Assembly: GCA_024275575.1 (NCBI GenBank)
Contig: JAJRYV010000134.1
Coordinates: 1-64,000, forward strand
Direction: 5' to 3'
Origin: a bacterium
Lineage (GTDB): Bacteria > Zhuqueibacterota > Zhuqueibacteria > Zhuqueibacterales > Geothermadaptataceae
Length of the DNA stretch: 64,000 bases
Every line of letters starts with the position of its first letter. Positions within the stretch are counted from its first letter, which is position 1. Made by a program: the position numbers and the translations under genes. Shown piece by piece: positions 36,885 through 41,872 of this stretch. A model generated the notes under the pieces. The model had not been told where the DNA came from, did not search any database, and saw only the letters and a list, made by a program, of their open reading frames with translations.

Positions 36885-37646
36885 ATGAAAAAAGAAACCA
36901 AACTGGCCATCGGAATTATCGCTTCCGTATGCCTGCTGATCACCCTTGCGGTTTTGCAATCTATGGAAGCGAAATTCCTCGAATTGCCGGTCCACTGGAT
37001 TGCTCTGGCCATCGCGCCGCTGGTGTTGGCTTTGTTTACCGGCGGATTTATCACCCGCTTCAAAGGTTTCGGTCTCGAGTTGGAAACCACCTTGAAAGCA
37101 CCGGTGGCTTCTCTGGATTTAACCGCCTCCGATGCGGTGGCTGATATCCCGGGTGATGAAAAAAGGAGCTACGCCTACCTCGACAACCTGCCGAAAGAGA
37201 AAAAACTCGCGGTAAATTGGCTGCTTTTGCGTTCCGGCCGGAAGAATTTTTATACGGCTCAGGGTATCGAAACCTACGTGCGGGAATTGCCCAATATCAA
37301 ATATTTTGAGGTGCGATCAGAAAATGATGACTTTATTTGCTTTCTGCCGATGGCGGTTTTTAAAGATGAAAGCGACCATCTCAGCGACCGCTTGCACCAT
37401 GAAAAGATGCAGCAGCTCATCGAGGCAATCGAAACGGATAAAGTGCCCGAAGCTTTTCACCGTTCGATGATCACGCTGAAAATTCAAAGCGACCAGAGCC
37501 TCGTCGATGTCTTGCGTACCATGCGGGCGGAAAATGTGGGTTTCGCCGCGGTTGTCTCCCCCGCTGGAAACTACCTGGGCGTGCTATTCGCCGCAGAAGT
37601 GGAAAAAAGAATTGCGGATATGGTACTCGCTGCGAGCGGCAACTGA
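36885..37646 (+). CDS. Two-pass membrane protein with CBS-like C-terminus, unknown function
   Basis: 253 residues. Two membrane segments at about 8-25 and 37-55, then a cytoplasmic or periplasmic region. Residues about 205-250 (SLVDVLRTMRAENVGFAAVV, then YLGVLFAAEVEKRIADM) resemble half a CBS motif. A charged middle carries a His/Asp cluster (DESDHLSDRLHHEKM). AGGATGAGAG precedes the ATG. Not recognised as a family; it follows the secreted protein gene by 91 bases. Confidence 0.65.
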   Translation: MKKETKLAIGIIASVCLLITLAVLQSMEAKFLELPVHWIALAIAPLVLALFTGGFITRFKGFGLELETTLKAPVASLDLTASDAVADIPGDEKRSYAYLDNLPKEKKLAVNWLLLRSGRKNFYTAQGIETYVRELPNIKYFEVRSENDDFICFLPMAVFKDESDHLSDRLHHEKMQQLIEAIETDKVPEAFHRSMITLKIQSDQSLVDVLRTMRAENVGFAAVVSPAGNYLGVLFAAEVEKRIADMVLAASGN

Positions 37647-37763
37647 GGGTGAATAACTATGAGATTATTGATGTAAGCTACTGATAGGCGTGGATTTATC
37701 ACTGATTTTAAGTTACGGCTTAGCAAGCTATGCTACCAGATATCGGCAGGGCTTAATCTAAAA

Positions 37764-37825
37764 GTAAATCATCTGAATACAACGGTAATGCAACGTCTGC
37801 TGCGGAATAAATCCCACAGCTATTT
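37764..37825 (+). repeat. Dispersed repeat family II, copy B
   Basis: Ungapped 62-base match to 3999-4060. The hairpin arms GCTGCGG and CACAGC are slightly degraded. It is immediately preceded by GGCTTAATCTAAAAGTAA (37750-37767), the head of family III, showing that heads and hairpins recombine or share an origin. It lies about 100 bases before the lysine-riboswitch promoter. Confidence 0.7.
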
Positions 37826-37922
37826 TTATATAAACTTAAAAATGCTGAGTCAACTGGATAACCAGATGGAAAATACTATTGGCTGTTTGCTTTTGGTTTT
37901 TGAATTACATTCAGGAATATTC

Positions 37923-37950
37923 TTGCATTTCCGCCAATTTTCTCTATATT
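37923..37950 (+). promoter_or_regulatory. Sigma-70-type promoter of the lysine operon
   Basis: TTGCAT at 37923-37928 and TATATT at 37945-37950 are 16 bases apart. The predicted transcript start near 37957 falls exactly at the first base of the riboswitch P1 stem, which strengthens the call. Confidence 0.65.
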
Positions 37951-37955
37951 GACTG

Positions 37956-38130
37956 CCAAATAGAGGCGCTGCAAAAATCAGTAGCTGCCCGGTTTGAAGT
38001 CCAGGCTTCGCATAACCGGGTAGTGAAAGGGTTTGCAGCCGAAACGATTGTTTTCTGGAATGCAATCGTTGGGTCGTGCGATAAGATCGCACGGACTGTC
38101 ATCCTTTCACCGGATGGAGCGCTATTGAGG
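37956..38130 (+). ncRNA. Lysine riboswitch (L box) controlling dapE-dapB-dapA-dapD
   Basis: All conserved blocks of the lysine aptamer are present in order: ATAGAGGCGC, AGTAG, GTGAAAGGG, GCCGAAA, GGACTGTCAT and GGAGCGCTATT. The five helices can be drawn: P1 AATAG/CTATT; P2 GCTGCAAA (37968) with TTTGCAGC (38032) and its upper part CTGCCCGGTT (37985) with AACCGGGTAG (38014); P3 ACGATTG/CAATCGT; P4 CGTGCGAT/ATCGCACG; P5 CATCC/GGATG. It lies between a promoter and an intrinsic terminator that touches the dapE start codon. Bound lysine should favour the terminator and shut the operon. Confidence 0.95.
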
Positions 38131-38131
38131 T

Positions 38132-38204
38132 AACCCTGATTTTTTAATCATGTGGGTTGGTTTAGACCGGTGCTCGATCCGTTTTAAATCAACCCATTTT
38201 TTTT
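38132..38204 (+). terminator. Riboswitch expression platform: antiterminator and intrinsic terminator touching the dapE AUG
   Basis: Terminator arms TGGGTTGGTTTA (38153-38164) and TAAATCAACCCA (38185-38196) form a 12-pair stem with one G-U, followed by eight T residues (38197-38204); the dapE ATG is the very next base. A competing antiterminator can form from AACCCTGATT (38132-38141) with AATCA and GGGTT (38146-38158), which uses the terminator's left arm. The 3' terminator arm also occupies the place where a ribosome site would be. Confidence 0.85.
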
Positions 38205-39203
38205 ATGACTGTCAGCGACTATCTGAAAAAACTCATCGATATTCCTTCCCCCACCGGGGAGGAGGCGCGGCTGTGTCGCCAATTGCAGCAGGACTTGCAG
38301 GCATGGGGATTTGAAACCGGCCTGCAGAAAGTGGATGCCGGGCGTTGCAATCTTTTTGCTCTTTCCGCTTCCGAACCTGAGGTTCTCATTTCCTCCCATC
38401 TGGACACGGTACAACCTTTTTTTGCAGCAAGCGAACAGTCCGGCAGAATTTACGGCCGTGGCGCCTGTGATGCCAAAGGGCAAATTGCAGCGGCTGTTTT
38501 TGCCGTAAAAAATTTGCCGCAAATTTTTCGGCGACGTGTTGGATTATTATTTGTTGTCGGGGAAGAAACCGACAGCATCGGTGCAAAAACAGCGGTTAAA
38601 AACGCTTTGACCTGCAGATTTATTCTCAATTGTGAACCCACCGGGAACAAACTTGCTGCCGGCCAGTGTGGCTTTCTTGCCTTCAAATTGACGGTGCAAG
38701 GCAAAGCGGCACATTCCGGTTATCCTGGGAATGGCGATTCGGCGATTGAAAAAATTGTGCAACAATTGGCTCATCTGCAAAAGTATGATTGGGGCATCGA
38801 TGAAAAATTCGGCCGGGCGACATTTAATCCCGGCAAAATAAAAGGCGGAACAGCGGCAAATGTCATCGCAGCAGAGGCGGAGGCAGAATGCTCTGTCCGG
38901 GTAGTTACGAGCTGCGACAACGTACAGGCACAACTTGAATTGTTGTTAATGCCGGGAATTGAAGTGCAAATTTCAGCACGCAGCGAACCTGTGCAGCTCT
39001 TTGTGCCGCCTGGTTTCGCAGCGGCGACTGTCAGGTTTGGCTCTGATGCGGTGCATTTTTCAAAGGCCTATCAAACCCTGATGCTGGGTCCGGGATCGAT
39101 TCTAAACGCCCACACGAAGGATGAGTTTATCGAAGTTTCGGAGCTGGAAGATGCCGTCAAAATATATCAAAATTTGCTCGAAACCCTTTTATCAATGATC
39201 TGA
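38205..39203 (+). CDS. dapE: M20-family succinyl-diaminopimelate desuccinylase (probable)
   Basis: Removes succinate from N-succinyl-LL-diaminopimelate. M20 metal ligands are visible: His in ISSHLDTV, Asp in GRGACDAKGQ, catalytic Glu in VVGEETDS, and Glu in NCEPTG. The dimerisation domain (FKLTVQGKAAHSGYPG) is present. At 332 residues it is shorter than typical DapE (about 375), so an ArgE/LysK-like specificity is possible. The lysine riboswitch upstream and dapB, dapA and dapD downstream argue for DapE. The ATG directly follows the terminator T-run, leaving no standard ribosome site. Confidence 0.83.
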   Translation: MTVSDYLKKLIDIPSPTGEEARLCRQLQQDLQAWGFETGLQKVDAGRCNLFALSASEPEVLISSHLDTVQPFFAASEQSGRIYGRGACDAKGQIAAAVFAVKNLPQIFRRRVGLLFVVGEETDSIGAKTAVKNALTCRFILNCEPTGNKLAAGQCGFLAFKLTVQGKAAHSGYPGNGDSAIEKIVQQLAHLQKYDWGIDEKFGRATFNPGKIKGGTAANVIAAEAEAECSVRVVTSCDNVQAQLELLLMPGIEVQISARSEPVQLFVPPGFAAATVRFGSDAVHFSKAYQTLMLGPGSILNAHTKDEFIEVSELEDAVKIYQNLLETLLSMI

Positions 39204-39225: not shown

Positions 39226-39963
39226 GTGCGATTAGGCATTATCGGAACAGGGCGAATGGGCATGGCCGTCGAAGCAGTCGCCGAAGATTCGTCTCATGAA
39301 ATTGTATTTCGCTGCGATGTTGACAATCAATTGACAGGTGAACTTGCCGCTCGTGCTGAAGTCATCATCGATTTCAGCACTGCGCACTGCATCAAACAGA
39401 ACGTCGAATCGGCAATGAGAGCGGGAACGCCGTTTGTCACCGGCACCACCGGCTGGCAGGAGGAGCTGGGCGCCGTGCAGGCGCTGGTGGAAAAATATGA
39501 TGGCAGTTTTCTTTACGCGGCAAATTTTTCCGTGGGCGTCGCCCTGTTTCGGCAGTTGGTGCAGCAGGCAAGCCGGCTTTTTTCTGCGTTTGAAAACTAT
39601 GATTTTGCCATTCGCGAAAGCCACCACAACGGCAAACAGGATTGCCCCAGCGGCACCGCGTTGATGTTGGGTGAAACTGTTTTGCAGCATTTACCGCGCA
39701 AGCAACGGCTGGTTTTCGGCAACCAGGATGGCGCTATCGCAGCAGCGGAATTACAAATCAGCAGTTCGCGTTTCGGTGCTGTTCCCGGTACGCACAGCAT
39801 TTTTATCGACAGCGCTGAAGATTTTATCGAGCTGAAGCATGTTGCCCGCGGGCGCGCTGGATTTGCGACAGGCGCTCTGCGTGCGGCTGAATGGCTGCAA
39901 GGGAGAAAAGGTTTTTTCACCCTGGAAGATATGCTGCACACTTTTACAACTCAAAATTTTTGA
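39226..39963 (+). CDS. dapB: 4-hydroxy-tetrahydrodipicolinate reductase
   Basis: NAD(P)H-dependent second step of the diaminopimelate pathway. 245 residues. N-terminal Rossmann motif GIIGTGRMGMAV, the conserved FSVGVALF stretch, and the active-site signature ESHHNGKQDCPSGTAL with the catalytic His pair and Lys. Start is GTG 39226 with AAAGGAAAGG upstream. 22 bases after dapE, 12 bases before dapA. Confidence 0.95.
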   Translation: MRLGIIGTGRMGMAVEAVAEDSSHEIVFRCDVDNQLTGELAARAEVIIDFSTAHCIKQNVESAMRAGTPFVTGTTGWQEELGAVQALVEKYDGSFLYAANFSVGVALFRQLVQQASRLFSAFENYDFAIRESHHNGKQDCPSGTALMLGETVLQHLPRKQRLVFGNQDGAIAAAELQISSSRFGAVPGTHSIFIDSAEDFIELKHVARGRAGFATGALRAAEWLQGRKGFFTLEDMLHTFTTQNF

Positions 39964-39975
39964 AAGGATAAACAG

Positions 39976-40887
39976 ATGAATGAACGAATTTTCAGCGGTT
40001 GTTTTACCGCTATCGTTACCCCGTTTGATGCGCATGGAGAATTCGATGAAAAGGTAATGCGCCAGCTTGTCGAATGGCAAATCAGCAGTGGCGTCGATGG
40101 GCTCGTCGTCTGCGGTACGACCGGGGAAAGTGTGGTGCTCGATCGCGCCGAGACGAGGCGGGTGATCGGCACAGTGATCAATCAGGCCAATGGCCGTGTG
40201 CCGGTAATTTGCGGCCCCGGAACAAACAATACGGTCGATGCGGTGCAGCGCTCAGTGGAAGCGCAGGAACTCGGCGCCGATGGCATTTTGTCGGTGGGGC
40301 CTTATTATAATAAACCGACACAGGCCGGTTTTTATGCTCATTTTGAGGCCGTCGCCGGAGCGGTTTCGCTGCCGGTGATTTTATACAATGTGCCCGGCAG
40401 AACGGGATCGAATATTTCCGCAGAAACGACTTTGTCCCTGGCGCAAATTCCCAATATCGCGGCGATCAAAGAGGCCTCGGGAAATTTCGGGCAAATCATC
40501 GGAATTTTACGGGACCGGCCGGATGATTTTTCCGTGCTCTCCGGTGATGATGCCTTGACTTTGCCGTTGATCGGTGCCGGCGCTGATGGTGCCATCTCCG
40601 TGGTTGCGAATGAAATTCCGAAGCAATTCACGGCGATGGTGCAGGCTGCATTAGACGGTGATTTCCCCACGGCACGGACGATACAAAACCGTTATTTCAA
40701 TCTCATGCAGCTCAATTTTATCGAATCAAATCCCATCCCGGTTAAAACTGCGCTGGCGCTCATGGGAAAAATTCAGGAGAAATTTCGCCTGCCGTTGGTG
40801 CCGATGCAAGCGGAGAACCGGGAAAAACTGGAGACGGAACTGGCCTTGCTCGGGCTGGCAAAATCCGTTGAAAGGCTCGCGGTTTGA
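39976..40887 (+). CDS. dapA: 4-hydroxy-tetrahydrodipicolinate synthase
   Basis: Condenses pyruvate and aspartate semialdehyde, the committed step to lysine and peptidoglycan diaminopimelate. 303 residues. Family signatures are CGTTGES near residue 45, the catalytic Tyr in LYNVPGRTGSN, and the Schiff-base Lys in AAIKEASGNF. AAAGGA precedes the ATG. A family III hairpin lies between this gene and dapD. Confidence 0.96.
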   Translation: MNERIFSGCFTAIVTPFDAHGEFDEKVMRQLVEWQISSGVDGLVVCGTTGESVVLDRAETRRVIGTVINQANGRVPVICGPGTNNTVDAVQRSVEAQELGADGILSVGPYYNKPTQAGFYAHFEAVAGAVSLPVILYNVPGRTGSNISAETTLSLAQIPNIAAIKEASGNFGQIIGILRDRPDDFSVLSGDDALTLPLIGAGADGAISVVANEIPKQFTAMVQAALDGDFPTARTIQNRYFNLMQLNFIESNPIPVKTALALMGKIQEKFRLPLVPMQAENREKLETELALLGLAKSVERLAV

Positions 40888-41035: not shown

Positions 41036-41872
41036 ATGACAACTCAAGAAATAAAAGTCGAAATTGAAGATGCATTTCAAAACAAAACCGAACTTTCGGT
41101 AAAACTGCAACAGGCAATGAGTTTATTTTTTACCCGTCTGGAAAATGGTGAAATCCGCTCGGCGAAGCCGACGGATTCCGGCTGGCGGGTCAATACCTGG
41201 GTGAAAAAGGGAATTTTACTCGCTTTTCGCCTTGGGCAATTGCATGATTATTCAATAAATGAGCACCTCGTATTTTTTGATAAACACAACATTCCGCCGC
41301 AGAAGTTCACGTTGCGGGATGGCATACGCATCGTGCCGGGAGGAACGACGGTGCGTTCGGGCAGTTTTGTGGCAAAAGGCGTGGTGATCATGCCACCGGC
41401 GTATATCAACATCGGCGCCTATGTCGATGAAGGCACGATGGTGGATTCACATGTGCTGGTGGGTTCGTGCGCGCAAATCGGTAAAAATGTGCATTTGAGC
41501 GCTGCAGCGCAAATCGGTGGTGTGCTCGAACCCATCGGTGCGATGCCGGTCATCGTCGAGGATAATGTGGTTGTCGGTGGCATGGTTGGTGTATTTGAGG
41601 GCACAATCGTACGTAAAAATGCCGTTCTCGGCGCCGGCGTAATGCTGACCCGCTCGACGCCGGTTTATGATTGCGTTCATGAAAAAGTTCACCGGGCGGA
41701 AGGCGAAACGCCGCTCATCATTCCCGCAGGTGCAGTGGTCATCCCCGGCAGCCGGCCGCTGAACATGGCCTTCGGCCGGCTGCATCATCTTTCCGTTCAA
41801 ACACCATTGATTGTCAAATACCGGGATCGCAATACGGATGCAGCGACCGCACTCGAAGATGCCTTGCGCTGA
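41036..41872 (+). CDS. dapD: Tetrahydrodipicolinate N-succinyltransferase
   Basis: Succinylates tetrahydrodipicolinate with succinyl-CoA. 278 residues, close to the 274 of Escherichia coli. N-terminal helical domain, then a left-handed beta-helix of hexapeptide repeats (GAYVDEGTMVDSHVLVGSCA, QIGKNVHLSAAAQIGG) with the family loop VLEPIGAMPVIVED. ATG 41036 is preferred over upstream in-frame codons because it gives the normal N-terminus. Establishes the succinylase branch of lysine synthesis; dapC and dapF are not in the window. Confidence 0.95.
   Translation: MTTQEIKVEIEDAFQNKTELSVKLQQAMSLFFTRLENGEIRSAKPTDSGWRVNTWVKKGILLAFRLGQLHDYSINEHLVFFDKHNIPPQKFTLRDGIRIVPGGTTVRSGSFVAKGVVIMPPAYINIGAYVDEGTMVDSHVLVGSCAQIGKNVHLSAAAQIGGVLEPIGAMPVIVEDNVVVGGMVGVFEGTIVRKNAVLGAGVMLTRSTPVYDCVHEKVHRAEGETPLIIPAGAVVIPGSRPLNMAFGRLHHLSVQTPLIVKYRDRNTDAATALEDALR

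Follow-up and report, generated by a model that had tools for sequence, protein, structure and literature searches.

A predicted lysine riboswitch whose terminator abuts the start codon of dapE at the head of a dapE-dapB-dapA-dapD operon

The window analysed here is a stretch of 64,000 nucleotides from a genome of the phylum Zhuqueibacterota (GenBank assembly GCA_024275575.1, contig JAJRYV010000134.1, positions 1 to 64,000). Between positions 37923 and 38204 it carries, in order, a promoter, a lysine riboswitch aptamer, an antiterminator/terminator platform and eight T that run straight into ATG 38205, the start of a dapE-like gene followed by dapB, dapA and dapD. The features of the locus are as follows.

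37923..37950, + strand: predicted promoter, with -35 TTGCAT (37923-37928), a 16-base spacer and -10 TATATT (37945-37950), from a -35/-10 pair conserved at related loci
37953..38132, + strand: lysine riboswitch aptamer of five helices, matching Rfam RF00168 (102.9 bits, E 2.8e-26)
38111..38181, + strand: predicted antiterminator, formed by pairing of GGGUUGGUUUAGACCGGUGCUCGAUCCG with AACCC and the P1 and P5 3′ strands, from the ligand-free minimum-energy fold
38153..38196, + strand: terminator hairpin with 12 pairs in the stem base, from sequence, local folding and the P1-enforced fold
38197..38204, + strand: U-tract of eight T adjoining ATG 38205, from sequence
38205..39203, + strand: gene for a dapE-like M20 deacylase of 332 aa (PF01546, PF07687), with no Shine-Dalgarno (SD) sequence (SD energy +2.3)
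39226..39963, + strand: dapB, GTG start (TIGR00036, 139.3 bits, above cut-off)
39976..40887, + strand: dapA (TIGR00674, 333.4 bits, above cut-off)
41036..41872, + strand: dapD (NF008808, 307.2 bits, above cut-off), its start being our choice inside a longer open reading frame

The identity of the aptamer is clear. In a scan of the whole window its score stood far above the cut-off of 30 bits and the match was full-length (model positions 1-182 of 182), which rules out a chance match and bears out the complete lysine riboswitch claimed by the first-pass annotation, for which such a covariance scan had been proposed as a check. RF00168 was the sole Rfam family at gathering score across the window, no other family appeared between 37650 and 38300 up to E 1, and the aptamer is the single RF00168 copy in its genome. 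Membership of the family is thus supported both by sequence and five-helix structure above the gathering score and by the genes lying 3′, lysine-pathway dapB, dapA and dapD behind a first gene for an M20 deacylase.

The expression platform comprises two mutually exclusive predicted folds. The terminator pairs a 5′ arm, TGGGTTGGTTTA (38153-38164), with a 3′ arm, TAAATCAACCCA (38185-38196), over 12 pairs including one G-T, with a local energy of -23.3 to -23.8 kcal/mol; an automatic scanner did not report it because the loop exceeds that program's 8-base limit. When the leader is folded without ligand, by comparison, its minimum-energy structure is an antiterminator in which AACCC and the P1 and P5 3′ strands take the terminator 5′ arm and beyond; enforcing P1 restores aptamer plus terminator. 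An intrinsic terminator and an antiterminator sharing the P1 3′ strand, the hallmarks of a transcription-terminating OFF switch, are therefore both present, by prediction only; the antiterminator, the 12-pair stem and the eight T reaching ATG 38205 had all been read from the letters beforehand and are upheld by sequence and predicted folds alike. When folding was followed along the growing RNA, P1 belonged to the best fold at 38150 (cost 0.0); its cost was 1.0 at 38172, from where the antiterminator wins, 16.3 at 38180 and 12.5 kcal/mol at 38190, and once the terminator was complete the P1-enforced aptamer and terminator lay 3.5 (38197) or 3.2 kcal/mol (38204) above the free fold. A gap of this size could be paid for by ligand binding, and the modelled energies fit a decision made co-transcriptionally, in which high lysine should terminate and low lysine should allow read-through.

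Upstream of the aptamer, a TTG-type -35 and a TAnnnT -10 set 15-18 bases apart were found in 17/22 related loci, compared with 4.5% of mononucleotide shuffles (the five loci lacking such a pair are L005, L006, L009, L101 and L102), and alignment with the closest relative, the sibling locus L003, retains CTTGCAT and TATATT. The bare pattern is not enriched over the whole window (8 matches, 7.88 expected), so that support for the promoter, which had been proposed from this sequence and is borne out here, derives from its conservation in place rather than from the pattern itself. A sigma-70 consensus scanner run over 37640-38400 did not list it, because TTGCAT agrees with TTGACA at only 3/6 positions; a -35 of the form (C)TTGCAT in place of TTGACA recurs upstream of many related loci and appears to belong to the lineage. 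From the position of the -10, the 5′ end of the RNA is predicted near 37957, giving a leader of approximately 250 nt.

Taken together, these data lead us to read the element, with a probability of roughly 0.92, as a lysine riboswitch that acts on the dapE-dapB-dapA-dapD operon as a standard transcription-terminating OFF switch, with SD-less initiation at dapE after read-through. The aptamer would fold first; lysine would hold P1 together, leaving the downstream GGGUUGGUUUA free to pair with UAAAUCAACCC, and the resulting stem would terminate transcription in the U-tract directly before the AUG. Lacking lysine, the P1 and P5 3′ strands would capture the terminator 5′ arm, polymerase would read through, and dapE would be translated from the read-through RNA. 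Two points weigh against this reading. The duplex between the P1 3′ strand and the terminator 5′ arm is unexceptional at this locus (z -0.6, with 23.5% of 200 shuffles as good), although z was below 0 in 16/21 platforms (mean -1.1; -2.2 in the sibling); and the folding energies leave aside tertiary contacts and kinetics.

The four genes are presumably co-transcribed. That the product of the first belongs to the M20 family is certain from its sequence. Its best NCBIfam match was to a DapE-ArgE subfamily (158.5 bits, below that model's cut-off of 217.6), and the best 25 of 49 matched NCBIfam models, DapE, ArgE and LysK models among them, all fell below cut-off, leaving the protein outside the DapE equivalog; its best solved relative, 3ct9, is called an acetylornithine deacetylase (E 8.7e-24). 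Function as DapE is nonetheless probable, since the gene sits in an operon beside dapD. On the same strand upstream, positions 36885-37646 (+) encode a protein of 253 aa whose N-terminus includes a hydrophobic stretch and for which no family was found in NCBIfam, Pfam or PADLOC.

The start of dapE is well placed but poorly marked. Among 18 other orthologues, most have a start matching residue 1 or 3 of the window protein, and an in-frame TAG at 38163 closes the reading frame on the upstream side, no ATG, GTG or TTG lying between that codon and 38205. No 16S gene was found in this assembly, and so the canonical anti-SD sequence was used in place of the organism's own; predicted pairing at ATG 38205 was +2.3 kcal/mol, weaker than at any other of the window's 39 first starts; in the window, -4.5 was reached by 15/39 first starts, 30/39 best candidates and 15.5% of 1000 random places. 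The sibling dapE likewise lacks an SD (+2.9). The earlier remark that no room is left outside the terminator for a ribosome site is correct, and the terminator itself contains none. In both switch states the U-tract and AUG can also pair with A-rich codons shortly 3′, CTGAAAAAACTC (38197-38232), and a comparable run of A is present in the sibling.

Weak SDs recur where dapE follows this riboswitch. Mean predicted SD energy was -2.7 in 10 dapE-first loci of the phylum compared with -7.2 in 12 loci with another first gene (permutation p 0.0016), and -4.5 or below was reached in 3/10 and 12/12, respectively; starts were chosen by us, samples are small and related genomes are not independent, and the counts leave out L016 and L021 (from other phyla, each with its riboswitch next to a dapE-like gene) and five further riboswitch loci. 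Ten dapE orthologues without a nearby riboswitch (no RF00168 in those loci) were intermediate, at a mean of -5.0, and their difference from the dapE-first loci was weaker (p 0.06). Part of the effect therefore belongs to the dapE gene itself, and loss of the SD in association with the riboswitch is a trend only.

Of the alternatives, the one that survives best is that the terminator stem additionally represses translation of read-through RNA, its base lying within the ribosome footprint. By inspection, 8 nt separate the stem base (38196) from the AUG (7 by a script that adds one T to the stem). Enforcing P1 lowers the mean unpaired probability of positions -20 to +15 from 0.54 to 0.21 (RNA to 38234) or from 0.46 to 0.24 (RNA to 38264), and the terminator 3′ arm passes, in prediction, from mostly unpaired to fully paired. 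The dual-class platforms of Barrick and Breaker 2007 (PMC2258182), classed there under ‘dual transcription and translation attenuation’, are defined by a terminator hairpin lying 10 nt or less from the start codon and are described with the ribosome-binding site (RBS) inside the hairpin, yet at this locus there is no such site to hide. Moreover, the U-tract and AUG are paired with the A-rich codons in both states (unpaired probability of approximately 0.1-0.3 for most of the U-tract), so that only the segment upstream of the U-tract changes; fully read-through RNA would have been synthesised in its antiterminated form and might not refold; and for terminated RNA, which ends before the ATG, translation is moot. 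Translational control of read-through RNA is accordingly possible in these models, but secondary, and we hold it the less probable case.

A more speculative proposal, which we consider improbable, is that the U-tract doubles as a ribosome-recruiting element: antitermination in this genus would free an A/U-rich, SD-less stretch directly before the AUG, and riboswitch-linked dapE genes of the phylum would often have given up their SD. Were it true, one short sequence would both stop the polymerase and start the ribosome, but the predicted pairing of the U-tract in both states weighs against its serving as a landing site.

Absence of an SD would also suit a leaderless or truncated mRNA, with a second promoter or processing placing the 5′ end at the AUG or immediately ahead of it. 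However, the sole conserved promoter identified stands upstream of the aptamer, and the consensus scan gave one other site, inside the aptamer (37949-37978), and none in 38132-38205, albeit with a scanner of limited reach. We judge this very unlikely; the leaderless-like context suggested by the first-pass annotation finds no support as worded, and initiation at dapE would be SD-less on a long, structured leader. Initiation of dapE from an in-frame start farther upstream, within the platform and served by the GGAGG close to P1, can be practically dismissed, for although the sibling (L003/L105) has in-frame ATGs after GGAGGTAA (one with a predicted SD of -10.7 kcal/mol), the frame closed by TAG 38163 prevents this from being a shared mechanism, and ATG 38150 in the window is out of frame, running 54 codons.

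Within the phylum the lysine aptamer was detected in 22/82 genomes, comprising 2/3 in this genus (the present genome included), 0/4 in the rest of the family and 0/8 in the other family of the order; the genus mate without an aptamer (G001) also has no close dapE (best E 2.4e-14). Some aptamers were identical (L091 and L010; L090 and L011, both pairs from candidate division KSB1; L008 and L012). Judged by eye from N-terminal sequence, the first gene at the 22 loci is dapE-like in 10, lysC-like in 6, dapB-like in 5 and dapA-like in 1. The 22 loci hold 23 platforms, one locus being tandem. In 21/23 a script detected a hairpin ahead of a run of U, the exceptions being L005 and L100; by eye L005 does have a hairpin, and those picked automatically in L002 and L091 were poor choices. 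The order of promoter, aptamer and hairpin with U-tract is common across these loci.

The sibling L003 retains promoter, aptamer, terminator arms and, on inspection of the alignment by eye, the antiterminator pairing register, and its U-tract lies 3 nt from the ATG, close to the 0 nt of the window. At its aptamer 3′ end, GGAGGTAA is followed by ATGs in frame with dapE that read through the terminator stem, which is impossible in the window. In the remaining dapE-first loci for which the terminator call was usable, the U-tract is separated from the start by 11 (L007), 14 (L008), 18 (L090), 48 (L009) and 50 nt (L101 and L102), and in L091, judged by eye, by approximately 20 nt. The compact platform supposed to mark the lineage therefore holds for the two switch-bearing genomes of the genus and not for other dapE-first loci of the phylum, where spacers are longer.

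Two other loci depart from the common form. At L100, a 140-nt lysine aptamer (1501-1640, - strand; 93.8 bits) has shortened P2 and P3 and so seems to lack distal P2 together with any contact between loops L2 and L3; between it and the dapE-like gene no terminator was found, and four Acido-Lenti-1 RNAs (RF01687), spaced by approximately 190 bases, lie upstream of the riboswitch (1929-2542, - strand). Ahead of a dapA-like gene, L097 carries two complete tandem lysine riboswitches (1223-1403 and 1501-1679, - strand), both followed by a terminator of their own; such tandem arrangements of lysine switches have precedents, with 14 representatives in PMC9481103.

The class of riboswitch and the kind of platform are already known, and the junction, with zero spacing and no SD, is a minor peculiarity that one sibling shares. 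The locus extends transcription-terminating lysine riboswitches to the dap operon of an uncultured phylum, a literature search for KSB1 together with riboswitch having returned no paper, and it offers a clean natural case of how a ribosome starts at an AUG touching a terminator without an SD.

Set beside known systems, the element resembles the dual platforms of PMC2258182 in the distance of its terminator hairpin from the start codon (8 nt, within the limit of 10), and differs from them in having no RBS-like sequence and no SD-like pairing (+2.3 kcal/mol). With the KSB1-like riboswitches of its own phylum it shares promoter type, aptamer and often GGTTGATT-type terminator arms, whereas dapE-first loci other than L003 (3 nt) place at least 11 nt between U-tract and start. 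The lysC gene of Bacillus subtilis carries a lysine riboswitch (L box) of the transcriptional type. The likeness to it lies in the full-model aptamer, the P1 3′ strand common to the antiterminator, the intrinsic terminator and the lysine-pathway target, and the difference in an antiterminator that, in the predicted fold, extends here into P5. Since the lysine covariation model of PMC13273304 is reported to overlap a larger share of the aptamer than is the case in B. subtilis lysC, an antiterminator reaching P5 would fall within the known range.
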